Below, in pieces: positions 13,352 to 26,175 of a DNA stretch of 31,382 nucleotides. How positions within the stretch are numbered: position 1 is the stretch's first letter; every line of letters starts with the position of its first letter. The notes under the pieces are model-generated. The model was not told the DNA's origin and did no database searches. It worked only from the letters and a program-made list of their open reading frames with translations. The stretch comes from a virus: the IMG/VR virus record IMGVR_UViG_3300005842_000035, positions 1 to 31,382 of that record. One strand, 5' to 3'. Both the position numbers and the translations under genes were made by a program.

Positions 13352-13738
13352 CTAGAACGGCAGGTCGCCATCGGTGGATGACTCCTGTCGGCGGGGCGTT
13401 TGCTGCTGTCCTTCCTCACGAGACGACATAAATTCGACGGTGTCAGCGATCAGCTCCAAGCCGGCCCGAACGCCCCCCTGCTGGTCAGTCCAGGGCTTTG
13501 CTTCCAGGCGCCCTGATACGTAGACCCGCATGCCTTTTTTTAGGTACTGGGTCAGAGATTCGGCGCGCTGACCAAACACCGTGCACCGCACCCACTCGGT
13601 CTTGTCTTCCCAGTTCCCCTCTTGCGTCTTCACCCGACCGTTGGTTGCCACATTGAATCGAAGAAATGGCGCCCCATTCGCTGAATACTTCAGCTCTGGA
13701 TCGCTGCCGAGGTTCCCAATCGCACTACCGCTGAACAT
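13352..13738 (-). CDS. ssb: Single-stranded DNA-binding protein
   Basis: 128 residues with the standard SSB OB-fold pattern: SGSAIGNLGSDPELKYS, then FLRFNVATN, TEWVRCTVFGQRAE, YLKKGMRVYVSGRLEA. A short disordered linker leads to the acidic tip DGDLPF, the partner-binding tail of bacterial SSBs. ATG at 13738 has GAGGGGAG 8 bases ahead; a TTG two codons earlier is possible but too close to that site. It coats ssDNA for replication and for the annealing protein encoded upstream. Very sure. Confidence 0.95.
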   Translation of the reverse strand: MFSGSAIGNLGSDPELKYSANGAPFLRFNVATNGRVKTQEGNWEDKTEWVRCTVFGQRAESLTQYLKKGMRVYVSGRLEAKPWTDQQGGVRAGLELIADTVEFMSSREEGQQQTPRRQESSTDGDLPF

Positions 13739-13921
13739 CTTCAAAACTCCCCTCGGTTGTTTGCTGTTGCTGCTACCGTTCCTAAAGGCTGACCGCCGAT
13801 TGAGGTCACACCTACCTACACCCCTACTACTACGTGCGTAGAGCAGGGGGGACAGAGAGACGACGGGGAAAAAAGAGAAACAGGCCGCTATGTGAACCCC
13901 TCCACCGCGTCTACTCTGGTC

Positions 13922-14132
13922 ACCCGTCGCTCAGACCCCAACTTCTTTCCCCACTTTGTTCCCACTTTCTTCCCCAAAGTTCCCCTTCTTTCCCCACCAC
14001 TCATCACTTCTTTCACCCTTCTTTCCCTTATTTCCCCGCCAGGGCAACCGGCGCAAAATTGACCACTTTGCCGTTGGGGCTTCTTTCCCCACTTTCTTCC
14101 CCCTTATTTCCCCTTTCTTCCCCTTCCACGTT
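13922..14132 (-). repeat. Purine-rich GGGGAARRAA-type repeat tract (about 12 copies, 10-13 bp period)
   Basis: On the minus strand the last codons of the helicase-like gene and about 100 bases beyond are built from units such as GGGGAAGAAA, GGGGAAATAA, GGGGGAAGAAA, GTGGGGAAAGAAG and GGGGAACTTT. The strand is almost pure purine and the G-tracts recur about once per helical turn. The remaining space to the ssb gene (13739-13921) holds no convincing gene. Confidence 0.75.
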
Positions 14133-15341
14133 CGGCAGCAGTCGCACGATGACGCGGCGCCCACGACCAGCGGTCGCCTCGCTTTTCTCGTCAATCTCGC
14201 CGCGCTCCTTGAGCGTGATGAGCAGGCGGTCCAGCTCGTTCGCCTGACACTTCATCCGCTTGAGCAGCGTGCTCCGGTCGGTCTGGGCGCCGATGAACCG
14301 CAACGCCTTCTGAGCCTGTTGCTCGAACTTCGAGAACGTGACCCGCTCCTCGAACACCCGCGAGGTGCCAGCCAGCACCCACTCCATGAAGGCAATCGCC
14401 CGCTCAGCAGCGTCCTCGGTAACCTCGTAGGCTGGCTCGATTCCTTCATCAGAGACGGTGATGAGCGCACAGACTTTGGCGAGGTGGTGCCCGAGTCGGC
14501 TGTACAGTCCCATCAACTCCTCGGGCGCGTTGCCGCTCTCTGCGAACGTGCTGTGATCGGCCGTCCACTCCACGAATCGGCGCCGAACCACCTTGAACGA
14601 CAGCTCGGCGCGCTTCATCCTGGACATCGACGCCAGATGGCGTGTGATGATCGAGACGGCGTGAGCGTCACCCGATGCGAGGTATCCCCCTGGCGGCTCT
14701 GCTTCCTTGACGGTCGGTGCGATGAACAGGAAGCGCGGCATAAAGCCTGACCGCATGTCTGTCTCGGTCAGCGACTCCACCAGCCAGTCCAGCGTTGATG
14801 CGGCCAGGATGGTCAGTGCTGGCTTGACGATGCTGATGCGCTCTCCACGCCCCTCAGCACCCCTCAGCGTGCGGTCGTAGGTGTCCTGGCAGTCGAACAG
14901 GTCGGTGAGCCGTTGCTTCATGCCTTGCATGTAGCTGGACTTCATCCGCTCCAGCAGCGATCCGAACTCGGACTCCTTGAGCACGCTCGTCGGATGGGCT
15001 GCGAGGTTGCGGATGAACTGCTCAGGGCTGAACTCTCGGTCCAGAATTACCCCTGGTACGGCGTTGCCAAGTGGGTAGGTCGGCAGATCCACGCTAGTGC
15101 TCTTGCGGAACACACCGGACGGCGCCAGCAGCAGCACGTACAGGTTCGGCCACTGCTCGCGCCCGCCGCCGCCCTTCCAGTAGACGTTGCTGCCGATAGC
15201 GCCCGCCATCGCTGCAAGACCACCAGCCACATGGAAGGCTAACGGGGCGTCGGTCATCTTACGCGCGTATTCCACGTAGTTCCCGAGCCACCCGTTTGTT
15301 GGGCCTGCCACGTACCGCATGATCTCGCGTTCGTCTGTCAC
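14028..15341 (-). CDS. DUF3987-family helicase/primase-type ATPase
   Basis: 437 residues. The front (YVEYARKMTDAPLAFHVAGG) and the P-loop strand-loop LYVLLLAPSGVFRKSTSVD (residues 68-85, Walker A-type APSGxxRKS) match the DUF3987 family, phage and plasmid proteins thought to act as replicative helicases beside a CHC2 primase. Further conserved parts are VLKESEFGSLLERM, DLFDCQDTYDR, TILAASTLDWL and a basic arginine region SGFMPRFLFIAP. The C-terminal 90 residues look like a winged helix (DRSTLLKRMKCQANELDRLL). The last residues are encoded by the purine repeat tract. GTGA/ATGA coupling to the primase gene supports a common complex. Confidence 0.8.
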   Translation of the reverse strand: MTDEREIMRYVAGPTNGWLGNYVEYARKMTDAPLAFHVAGGLAAMAGAIGSNVYWKGGGGREQWPNLYVLLLAPSGVFRKSTSVDLPTYPLGNAVPGVILDREFSPEQFIRNLAAHPTSVLKESEFGSLLERMKSSYMQGMKQRLTDLFDCQDTYDRTLRGAEGRGERISIVKPALTILAASTLDWLVESLTETDMRSGFMPRFLFIAPTVKEAEPPGGYLASGDAHAVSIITRHLASMSRMKRAELSFKVVRRRFVEWTADHSTFAESGNAPEELMGLYSRLGHHLAKVCALITVSDEGIEPAYEVTEDAAERAIAFMEWVLAGTSRVFEERVTFSKFEQQAQKALRFIGAQTDRSTLLKRMKCQANELDRLLITLKERGEIDEKSEATAGRGRRVIVRLLPNVEGEERGNKGEESGERSPNGKVVNFAPVALAGK

Positions 15342-16033
15342 AGACGGCTCTCCAGATGGCGCACGGCTCCAGCGAAGTCCAGCCCGTAGCGCAGTTCAAG
15401 GTAGGTAAAGGCGTCCCCGCCGACGTTGCAGCCACGACAGATCCAGACGCCTTTCCTGGTGTCGATGTCGAGACTCGGATGCTGGTCAGCGTGGAACGGA
15501 CAGCAGCACTTCCATTTGCCGTTGCTGGTCGGCTGGCCCTGGTCGTTCTCGTAGGCGATGAGCATGGCAAGGTCAACAGATGAGCGGACCCTGTCTACAC
15601 GGTCGCGCCATGCGATGTCAGCCTGGATGCGGTCGGCTCCCTTGTTGCCCGCCCGCTGGCGCCAACTCAACTCTGACGACGCCATCTCGTGACGGTCGCG
15701 GGTCAACTCGTCCAGGAAGTCGCGGCCAGCCTCGCCAGCCATGACGATCAGGCGCCGCAGACGTGCGACATGCTCCACGAGCAACCCGTCTGACATCTCG
15801 CGGACGGCCTCGCGCTCGCGAATCTTGAAGCGTTCCGAGAACAGGTACTCCGACTTCTCGACGCTCGGATCAAGCCCTGAGCACCCGCTGACTCGCACCA
15901 GCCACAGACGGGCCGCTGGTGCTGGTCCGTCGATGTACCCGCCGAACCGTTCTTCAACGGGTTCGGCAAGCACGCCACTGCCCTTGCACGTCGGGCACAC
16001 GTCAGCCGCCTGATGCAGCATCCCGCCCGTCAC
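15338..16033 (-). CDS. CHC2 zinc-finger primase-type protein (231 aa)
   Basis: Residues 165-230 are a DnaG-type CHC2 zinc-binding domain: [18 protein letters not shown], then [20 protein letters not shown], the part of primases that recognises template ssDNA. No TOPRIM polymerase domain follows, so this is a primase zinc domain presumably working with the helicase-like gene immediately downstream. The N-terminal 120 residues have an isolated knuckle (CPTCKGSG) and a long charged helix, unrecognised. GTG at 16033 overlaps the stop of the annealing protein gene. Confidence 0.8.
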
Positions 16034-16944
16034 GATGCGGCCCTGTTGGCTTTCCTGGCCTCGGCAGCAATACGGTCGCTGACGGCCTTGACGAGCGCCG
16101 CAGCCTCCTCGTTTGTTGCTTGATCGAGGAATGCCGCCAGCGATGTGAACTTCTCGCCCGTGTGGTAGCCAATGAACTTAGCCCGCACATCATCGGCATC
16201 AAATCGCGTGTTCTTGACGGTCGTGTGCCAGCCGACCAGGAACGCCTTCTTGTTGCAGGGCACACGCTTCGGCGGCTCCTCTGGCGCATCAGTAACGACG
16301 GGCTGTAGGTCCACGATGGTGGGTGCCGTCGCAGGTTCGTCCTTGTCGGCCTGTGCCATCTCTTCGGCGGTGTAGAGGCCCGACAACTCCTGTGGGAATG
16401 CGCGGCGCAGTGCCAGCGACTCCGCACACTTCGCCAGCATGACCTCGGGCATCTTCTGCCACATGGTGCCGACGCTTTCCTTGCCATCGCGCTTGAACGT
16501 CTGCACGTAGGACTTCCAGGTGGCGACGGCGTACAGCGGTTCCTTCCAGTCGTTCCGTAGGACGCCGACCTTTGCCGCTGACGGGAACTCGTCGGCCAGC
16601 CACACGTCCGTCCAGACGCCATCCTTGCCGCACCAGAACGGCCCAAGCTGTCCGCCGTAGTGGCGCGTGCGCTCAGCGATCAGGCGGAACCCGTCGATGC
16701 TGACCTGAGTCTGCATCACCTCTCGGCGCTGCTTGCTGTCCCACCGCATGACGGCGTAAATCTGCCGTGCGAACGGATCGAGGCCGGTCCGCCGACACTG
16801 GCCCAGGAACAACTCCAGCTCGTCGGGCTGGGCGCCCTTGCAGATGGTCCGTGTAATGAGCGCGATCTGCTCGTCGGTGAACATCACGGCGGGCATGTCG
16901 TTCCGCTCCCGAACGGTCAACGCTGTCACGTTCTCAGCTACCAT
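16030..16944 (-). CDS. bet: Bet/RecT-type single-strand annealing recombinase
   Basis: 304 residues. Residues 20-200 match the phage Bet (RecT superfamily) annealing domain: [53 protein letters not shown], then the hallmark end [20 protein letters not shown] and GLYTAEEM. The remaining 100 residues are an acidic/Pro linker and a small C-terminal domain. It anneals complementary ssDNA during phage recombination or replication, working with SSB. No Red alpha-like exonuclease is adjacent; the VRR-NUC protein at 18011-18364 is a possible partner nuclease, by inference. It is the first gene from the promoter at 16978-17006. Confidence 0.9.
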
Positions 16945-18010: not shown

Positions 18011-18364
18011 TCAGAGCAACCCCCAACGCAATACTTCCCAGTCCTGGGGCCGCACGATCCGAGCGTCCACACCGGGGACGGTGCTCAGATGGTCGATGGC
18101 CTCCTGTTGCTCTGGGCGGACTCTTCCACGAGCCTTCTTGAGTTCCCAGAACCACAAGCGGCCCGGTCGTTTCGGATGCCAGAACGTCAGATCAGGCACG
18201 CCTGCCGTAGTCCGCTTCATGATCGGGAACGTCCACACGACGTACCCGAGCGATGCCAACGTCGCCTTGACCTGACGCTGGAACGCTGCCTCGGACATCG
18301 CCAGCAGCACCGGCGAGATCGTCGTCGTGCCGGCTGCTCGGGCGGCGGTCACCGTCTTACTCAC
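18011..18364 (-). CDS. VRR-NUC domain nuclease
   Basis: 117 residues from a GTG overlapping the methyltransferase stop (GTGA). The core AGVPDLTFWHPKRPGRLWFW followed by ELKKARGRVRPEQQEAIDHL is the VRR-NUC signature: PD..., then ExK, the PD-(D/E)xK metal site. Stand-alone VRR-NUC proteins in phages are thought to cleave branched DNA such as Holliday junctions or flaps. Its N-terminus (MSEAAFQRQVKATLASLGYV) is the usual helix before the fold. It lies between two methyltransferase genes. Confidence 0.88.
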   Translation of the reverse strand: MSKTVTAARAAGTTTISPVLLAMSEAAFQRQVKATLASLGYVVWTFPIMKRTTAGVPDLTFWHPKRPGRLWFWELKKARGRVRPEQQEAIDHLSTVPGVDARIVRPQDWEVLRWGLL

Positions 18365-19463
18365 GGCCACACTCCAAAGGCGCGAAACCAGAGTGCTCGC
18401 AAGGCGGCTTCGGCTTGCTGTGGCACAACGGCGTTGCCGAGTCCGCGCAGTCGGTCCACCCGGTTCGCAGTCCCATGAGCGCCTCCACGAACCGCTCGTT
18501 CAATTGCAGGGGCGAGGTCGGGGTACTGGGCGAGGTAGGCTGCCCATCCGTCTCGGTCGTCAGGTCCGGGTGGGAATCCGGGCCAATCACTGCTCGGACG
18601 GCCTGCCGTCCGAGCAGTCCATTCGTCGGCACATCCGCATCCGCACAGGCTCCGTCCTTCCAGTCCCGTACCGTTGGCGTCGCCCAGGCTTTCGCCTGTC
18701 CCCGCAACAGCAACTCCCCTCGGCGGGCACCTGAGCGGCTCAGGTGCCCGCCCGTCGTGTCGGCCACGCTCGGCGTCTGCCATTGCCGCGCAGGAGACTG
18801 CGCGGCAATGGCGAGCGGAACGCCCGCGCCATTGCCGTTGTGATGCTTCTCCTTCAGTAGAACCGCCCGAGTTCGCCATGTCTCTGGCTGCTCGCCATCG
18901 TTCGGGTTCATGGCTGCCGGCGTCGGCCAGTTGCGTCCAGTCCCACGCGAGCAGCCACCAGCGGTCACGGCTATGAGTCGCGCCAATGTCGGCTGCTTTG
19001 AGACAGCCCCACTCCGCATCGAACCCGCTTTCGGCCAGCGATCCGAGTACGGCGTCGAGTCCTCGAACAGTGATTGCTGCGACGTTCTCCAGAAAGACGT
19101 AGGCTGGTCCCACGTCGCGAATGAGTCGCATGAGATCAAAGAAGAGTCCAGACCGTTCGGCGTGGATGCCGCCCCCCTTGCCGGCCAGCGAGAGGTCTTG
19201 ACAGGGGAACCCTCCGACCACCATGCCGACACGGCCGCTGAGAGCGTCTGTGGGGACCGTACGTACGTCTCCCCAAACAGGTGCGGCATCCAACTCGCCC
19301 GACTCCATGCGAGCCGCCAGAGTCGCCACAGACGGGATTTCCCTCTCCACGTAGAGGAGGCAGCGAGCATCTGGAAACACTCGTCCGATGGCGACATCAA
19401 GGGCGCCGATTCCAGAGAAGGCAGAGACGTAGGTAGCAGGGACTTCGGCACGTACAGCCACAC
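18357..19463 (-). CDS. Second full-length reading frame through the C5 methyltransferase gene (368 codons)
   Basis: A frame offset by two bases, starting at its own GTG and running past both ends of the methyltransferase. Its product carries a pattern I know from phage/metagenomic proteins associated with cytosine methylases: SDRWPKAGSMRSG, repeated W-x-TP elements (WPTPAAMNPND, WATPTVRDWKDG), GLLGRQA, and the ending LNERFVEALMGLRTGWTD. These correspond base-for-base to conserved parts of the real methylase (for instance WATPTVRDWKDG and LGDANGTGLEG are one DNA segment). So it may be a genuine overlapping gene, or a conserved artefact forced open by codon bias. No ribosome site distinguishes it. 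Translation is undecided. Confidence 0.3.
   Translation of the reverse strand: MWLYVPKSLLPTSLPSLESAPLMSPSDECFQMLAASSTWRGKSRLWRLWRLAWSRASWMPHLFGETYVRSPQTLSAAVSAWWSEGSPVKTSRWPARGAASTPNGLDSSLISCDSFATWDQPTSFWRTSQQSLFEDSTPYSDRWPKAGSMRSGAVSKQPTLARLIAVTAGGCSRGTGRNWPTPAAMNPNDGEQPETWRTRAVLLKEKHHNGNGAGVPLAIAAQSPARQWQTPSVADTTGGHLSRSGARRGELLLRGQAKAWATPTVRDWKDGACADADVPTNGLLGRQAVRAVIGPDSHPDLTTETDGQPTSPSTPTSPLQLNERFVEALMGLRTGWTDCADSATPLCHSKPKPPCEHSGFAPLECGRE
18361..19461 (-). CDS. dcm: DNA (cytosine-5) methyltransferase
   Basis: 366 residues from GTG. Motif I FSGIGALD (15-22), catalytic motif IV GGFPCQDLSLAGK (Cys87), motif VI ENVAAI (125-130), motif VIII-like THSRDRWWLLA and motifs IX/X ending DRLRGLGNAVVPQQAEAALR are all present and in order. 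The variable target region between is low-complexity with recurring ADA elements (QLADAGSH, MADAERGR, LGDANGTG), typical of phage enzymes. It transfers methyl groups to cytosine C5, probably to protect phage DNA. The same DNA carries a complete second frame (18357-19463). GTGA coupling to the nuclease downstream. Confidence 0.92.
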   Translation of the reverse strand: MAVRAEVPATYVSAFSGIGALDVAIGRVFPDARCLLYVEREIPSVATLAARMESGELDAAPVWGDVRTVPTDALSGRVGMVVGGFPCQDLSLAGKGGGIHAERSGLFFDLMRLIRDVGPAYVFLENVAAITVRGLDAVLGSLAESGFDAEWGCLKAADIGATHSRDRWWLLAWDWTQLADAGSHEPERWRAARDMANSGGSTEGEASQRQWRGRSARHCRAVSCAAMADAERGRHDGRAPEPLRCPPRGVAVAGTGESLGDANGTGLEGRSLCGCGCADEWTARTAGRPSSDWPGFPPGPDDRDGWAAYLAQYPDLAPAIERAVRGGAHGTANRVDRLRGLGNAVVPQQAEAALRALWFRAFGVWP

Positions 19464-25996: not shown

Positions 25997-26063
25997 CTGT
26001 TGCCGGCCAAGTACCGGCTGCCTGTCTCCTGGGCCGCTAGAGGACGCTACGCCGAAGCGCACG

Positions 26064-26080
26064 GCCGGATTCGAACCCAC
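26064..26080 (-). other. tRNA T-arm-like sequence (candidate attP core)
   Basis: On the minus strand GTGGG-TTCGAAT-CCGGC reads as a tRNA T-arm with the invariant TTCGAAT loop; four of the five stem pairs form (one G-G mismatch). No matching acceptor stem or anticodon arm could be folded around it, so it is not a complete tRNA gene. Integrases of this type often use tRNA 3' ends, which makes this a plausible piece of the crossover region. Confidence 0.35.
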
Positions 26081-26175
26081 GATTGCAGGCTCCGATCAGT
26101 ATACGCAGAACGGCCACCCTCCGAAGAGAGCGGCCGCCTGTATGTCTCTGTGGGTTGCCCCCCACCAAGACAAGG

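Follow-up and report, generated by a model that had tools for sequence, protein, structure and literature searches.

The purine-rich repeats at the 3' end of the DUF3987 gene of this phage are likely to be the iterons of its replication origin, bound by the neighbouring DUF3987 initiator-helicase through a winged helix. Members of the DUF3987 family from several bacterial phyla show the same array-beside-helicase layout, each element using its own repeat word. The origin assignment, first proposed in a sequence-only reading of the window (the whole stretch of 31,382 bases analysed here), is favoured by inference from this family-wide association, from concerted changes of repeat unit and winged helix, and from the predicted MCM-like fold of the protein. 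By contrast, the GC-skew inflection proposed as a check is absent at the repeats; skew tracks the strand of the genes and changes direction near 21.5 kb.

Composition and setting of the repeat array

The minus (coding) strand between 13936 and 14123 carries 12-13 G-runs of the type GGGGAARRAA, in agreement with the earlier count of about a dozen units on one strand. The units cover both the DUF3987 3' end and the DNA beyond it, as had been described, but they form two separate clusters instead of a continuous tract (Table 1). G-runs start at 14123, 14113, 14103, and 14090 on the cluster A side and at 14037, 14027, 14018, 13995, 13985, 13975, 13963, 13952, and 13939 on the cluster B side, which gives successive spacings of 10, 10, 13, 53, 10, 9, and 23 bp, then 10s, 12, 11, and 13 bp. 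Ten units match a strict G(3-5)AA[AGT][AGT]A-like pattern and three are degenerate (GGGTGAAAGAAG, GGGGAACTTT, and GGGGTCTGA); the ninth G-run of the cluster B side (GGGG, 13936-13939) is degenerate, and the units as a whole are more degenerate than those of most relatives. Clusters A and B are 83% alike over 47 bp. The array is made up of a long direct set plus one or two inverted units, of which CGGGGAAAAAAGAGAAA is a candidate member of a second, opposed iteron set; no clear AT-richness marks the spacer between the direct set and this inverted unit. An imperfect inverted repeat (CCCCTACTACTACGTGCGTAGAGCAGGGG, 13821-13849), located beside the weaker inverted unit and between the array and ssb, may belong to the origin or be a terminator that lacks a T run.

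Table 1. Coordinates of the repeat array, the DUF3987 gene, and flanking genes in the window.
Feature	Position	Strand	Basis
ssb, downstream of array	13352..13744	-	PF00436 E=1e-32
Weaker inverted unit GGGGGGACAGAGAGA, resembles GGGACAGAA iterons of L273	13846..13860	+	inference
Inverted unit CGGGGAAAAAAGAGAAA, only plus-strand unit match in window, adjoins array	13864..13880	+	
Putative iteron cluster B, eight units, first supplies TAA stop (GGGGAAATAA), reaches ~85 bp beyond	13942..14037	-	
DUF3987 gene, 437 aa, predicted MCM-like AAA+ initiator-helicase	14028..15341	-	Pfam PF13148 E=2e-20
Predicted disordered tail (residues 405-437), coded by cluster A plus 3' edge	14031..14129	-	absent from homologues
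Putative iteron cluster A, four GGGG(G)AARRAA units, 10/10/13 bp apart, inside DUF3987 3' end	14080..14123	-	
C-terminal winged helix, residues 338-401, predicted iteron-binding domain	14139..14330	-	model and family profile
CHC2 zinc-ribbon primase-type gene, upstream of DUF3987	15338..16033	-	PF01807 E=2e-14
RecT annealing protein gene, upstream	16030..16944	-	PF03837 E=2e-32

The array is the densest tandem-repeat site of the window, which holds nothing comparable elsewhere. Its densest 210 bp contain 9 motif matches; 200 dinucleotide shuffles of the full window never gave more than 3, and none of 2000 local shuffles reached 9. With the amino acids fixed and synonymous codons drawn at random, 0.76 units would be expected in the coding tail, whereas 5 are observed (0 of 20,000 draws), an excess that points to constraint on the DNA itself or to its expansion. 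The suggestion of selection on the DNA in the coding tail is supported by this synonymous excess, but the statement that the repeats cross coding sequence without breaking the frame was too strong, because the TAA stop of the gene belongs to a unit. The best-fit period was 10.7 bp; however, helical phasing beyond plain tandem spacing was not confirmed, as phase coherence across the two large gaps was not significant (P=0.12). Folding of the region as RNA was no better than that of shuffles (z of -0.5 and -0.7), and a promoter and terminator search at the array returned nothing above shuffles that would explain it.

On the minus strand, the gene order is RecT, the CHC2 primase-type gene, the DUF3987 gene, the repeats, ssb, and HNH. 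The window, an IMG/VR virus record, also carries a TerL-like gene (phrog_2) and an integrase. After the integrase, on the plus strand at 26060-26100, GGCCGGATTCGAACCCACGATT resembles a tRNA 3' end read backwards and is a possible attP core; ARAGORN found no tRNA. Close to each other lie an N6/N4 DNA methylase gene (PF01555; 17282-17965) and an ORF resembling a C5 cytosine methylase (18361-19461).

Repeats at the 3' ends of DUF3987 genes

Searches of IMG/VR with the DUF3987 and TerL proteins returned no close relatives of the phage. RecT relatives were numerous in viral and genome contigs, and the flanks fetched with them contained no detectable DUF3987 gene. A scan of IMG/VR for the repeat pattern gave 50 contigs, whose arrays were differently built and belonged to unrelated phages. 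Two other IMG/VR phages have long arrays of ~12-bp units, of GGGAAGAACGGC type in L029 (1950-2400) and of GGGGAAAATATC type in L021 (750-1150), where they encode four-residue, NIGE-like protein repeats. Since no close phage relative was found, we tested a family-wide rule instead of the sequence itself. DUF3987 loci were collected by Pfam search from Chloroflexota, Actinomycetota, Pseudomonadota, Acidobacteriota, and phage and plasmid records, blind to repeats, and the main counts were made on a dereplicated set of 71 loci from which ten loci without a DUF3987 profile match had been taken out.

Tandem pairs of ~8 bp at a spacing of 8-13 bp occurred between -100 and +300 of the stop codon in 42 of 71 loci (59%), compared to 41 of 405 control windows taken elsewhere in the same loci (p=1e-18). 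In an earlier, unfiltered set, the corresponding counts were 46 of 79 for DUF3987, 55 of 389 for other ORF ends, and 14 of 98 for RecT 3' ends. Pairs peaked in the first 100 bp past the DUF3987 stop (41% of 93 loci), whereas the other well-covered bins mostly held pairs in 0-9% of loci, and the dominant lag was 9 bp (0.74 vs 0.09 per locus). Two or more direct units were combined with two or more inverted ones in 23 loci, with a single orientation switch in 18; the spacer between the opposed sets had a median length of 46 bp and an AT content of 0.56, compared to 0.46 for the locus. Unit sequence varies from element to element and is nearly uniform inside most arrays, and homologues with arrays mostly use units other than that of the window.

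Among the closest homologues, iteron-like units were seen by eye at the DUF3987 3' end in L257 (34%), L189, L261, and L185, with GGGAA-type units on both strands in L189; none were seen by eye in L256 and L258, which are also among the homologues nearest the window protein. Neither score detected an array in 23 of the 71 loci, including all seven phages L265-L271 (Aeromonas AsC4_1, Vibrio D93, Pectobacterium Ymer, Pseudoalteromonas TW1, Manatee Spring, vir526, and Pantoea Vid5) as well as L256 and L258, and the 3' ends of the E. coli and Citrobacter YfjI genes (L275-L278) have no visible array. One viral contig (L216) has nine ATCGCGACA-type units 3' of an ORF without a DUF3987 profile match, which suggests that similar iterons may accompany other replication proteins.

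The position of the array between DUF3987 and ssb would also suit an operator, at which the DUF3987 protein or a phage regulator controls ssb and the downstream genes while replication starts elsewhere. Autoregulation by initiators is common in iteron plasmids, and the lack of a promoter-like match at the array means that a bound regulator could matter. We consider this explanation unlikely, because the downstream gene varies in relatives while the array keeps to the DUF3987 3' end, and because opposed sets that flank a spacer richer in AT are more consistent with an origin.

The DUF3987 protein and concerted change of unit and winged helix

DUF3987 has been predicted to be a helicase of mobile elements (PMC5862659). 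The window protein matches PF13148 at 73.7 bits, against a curated cut-off of 27, and this is its sole Pfam match. An AlphaFold2 (AF2) model built with 50 homologues (pLDDT 89) ranked MCM chains at the top in both Foldseek (E 2e-8) and VIA-align (Z 21.0, rmsd 3.4, 271 residues); it replaced a model built with 9 sequences (pLDDT 54), whose whole-model matches were set aside. At its C-terminal end, the DUF3987 family profile meets winged helices such as those of LexA and MCM3. The protein is thus predicted to have an MCM-like AAA+ helicase fold with a C-terminal winged helix. Residues 405-437, most of them encoded by cluster A, are predicted to be disordered (pLDDT under 50 in AF2), and four homologues end 8-26 residues past the aligned domain without such a tail.

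In a Pseudomonadota group (L237, L238, L240, and L241), proteins that are 76-89% identical accompany arrays of 8 or 9 exact copies each of TGCCGCCA, TGCGCCA, or TGTCGCCA, with a direct set in the terminal part of the gene and an inverted one that follows from its stop codon onward. Where near-identical proteins have different iterons, the protein differences lie near the recognition helix of the C-terminal winged helix. Likewise, in L179-L183, H or N at residue 502, which adjoins the recognition helix, tracks C or T at the last base of GTGTCAC/T in two sister pairs, with L180 being mixed (the other base in 3 of 11 units). Such winged-helix contrasts are limited in number and involve elements other than this phage, and shared descent may be a partial cause of them.

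The degeneracy of the G/A units, the disordered and unconserved tail that they encode, and the resemblance of clusters A and B to a duplication could instead reflect a functionless, slippage-prone purine tract that grew at a tolerant gene 3' end. This origin of the repeats is highly improbable given that the position rule holds with unrelated, non-purine units in many elements, that an inverted unit lies beside the array, and that units change in concert in relatives. The sequence-only reading also raised quadruplex or triplex formation. We give almost no credence to a G-quadruplex or triplex, in DNA or in mRNA, that stalls polymerase or ribosomes: the GGGG runs are separated by loops of 6-8 nt (6, 6, and 8 in cluster A, where a criterion of four G-tracts allows at most 7 bases) and G4Hunter scores are moderate at 0.97-1.37 (1.06 for cluster A and 1.37 for cluster B), but RNA folding is no better than that of shuffles (z -0.5), and such a role is not needed because some of the units that relatives carry at this position are free of G-tracts (GAAGTGTCAC, TGCTTCCA, and GTTGACA).

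Proposed mechanism and known systems

For this phage, we infer that the DUF3987 protein binds the units, that the DNA melts, and that replication starts here. Several DUF3987 copies would bind GGGGAARRAA units about one helical turn apart through their winged helices and would assemble a hexameric motor on the site. The region would then be melted, with the strand or spacer at which this happens being conjectural, and the CHC2 primase-type protein, SSB, and the host replisome would take over. The subset of iterons inside the initiator's own gene would encode a protein tail that is not needed, and this partial overlap implies that initiator and origin travel as one cassette. We also lean, with more reserve, towards the wider interpretation that DUF3987 proteins are, family-wide, self-loading MCM-like initiator-helicases. 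In this view, the C-terminal winged helix of each protein would recognize an iteron word that is specific to the element and sits at the 3' end of the protein's gene or within it. Protein and iterons would change as a pair, so that each phage or island obtains a private origin.

Apart from a few models, temperate phages mostly lack a known origin, and a rule to look at the DUF3987 3' end would predict an origin from annotation alone, in a directly testable form. DUF3987, a domain of unknown function, would gain a concrete role, and a winged-helix recognition code could be learned from the many natural initiator-site pairs.

Iterons within an initiator coding sequence are also found in the lambda O gene; however, lambda O is not a helicase and its iterons lie mid-gene, whereas the putative iterons of the window lie at the 3' end. 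In pRN1, ORF904 is likewise a winged-helix replication protein with an origin directly downstream of its gene, as is the putative origin here, but it has an SF3 helicase and a 100-bp stem-loop instead of iterons (PMC4234260). PICMI satellites share a DUF3987 primase, and their DUF3987 protein is needed for full replication of the element; the accessible portion of their description gives no iterons or mapped origin, and the window is from a phage (PMC10803314). A mention of iterons with DUF3987 was not found in the open-access text available from PMC5862659 and PMC10803314, and a description may exist elsewhere.

The closest parallels are the helicases SaPI Rep and SCCmec Cch2, both of which use a C-terminal domain to bind iterons that directly follow their own genes (PMC7581432, PMC6092414). 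The binding of downstream repeats by the C-terminal domain, as in Cch2, is predicted here by analogy; Cch2 belongs to the D5-type helicases and has three AAGTG iterons, in contrast to the 12-13 GGGGAARRAA units and MCM-like DUF3987 motor of the window (PMC7581432). The Rep helicase of SaPI and PICI elements is of the DUF927 or D5/Primase_Cterm type, whereas only DUF3987 is present here; those elements are satellites without virion genes, unlike this phage with its terminase and integrase, and the putative window iterons lie partly inside the gene (PMC7581432, PMC6092414). PICI origins consist of two opposed iteron sets around an AT-rich region (PMC6092414), and the wider DUF3987 set shows the same arrangement with an AT-richer spacer, although the spacer in the window is not clearly so. 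As in the SaPI and PICI elements, the window has short repeats immediately 3' of the putative initiator-helicase gene; their counterpart to the C-terminal DNA-binding domain would be the predicted winged helix of the DUF3987 protein, which may recognize the iterons (PMC7581432, PMC6092414).
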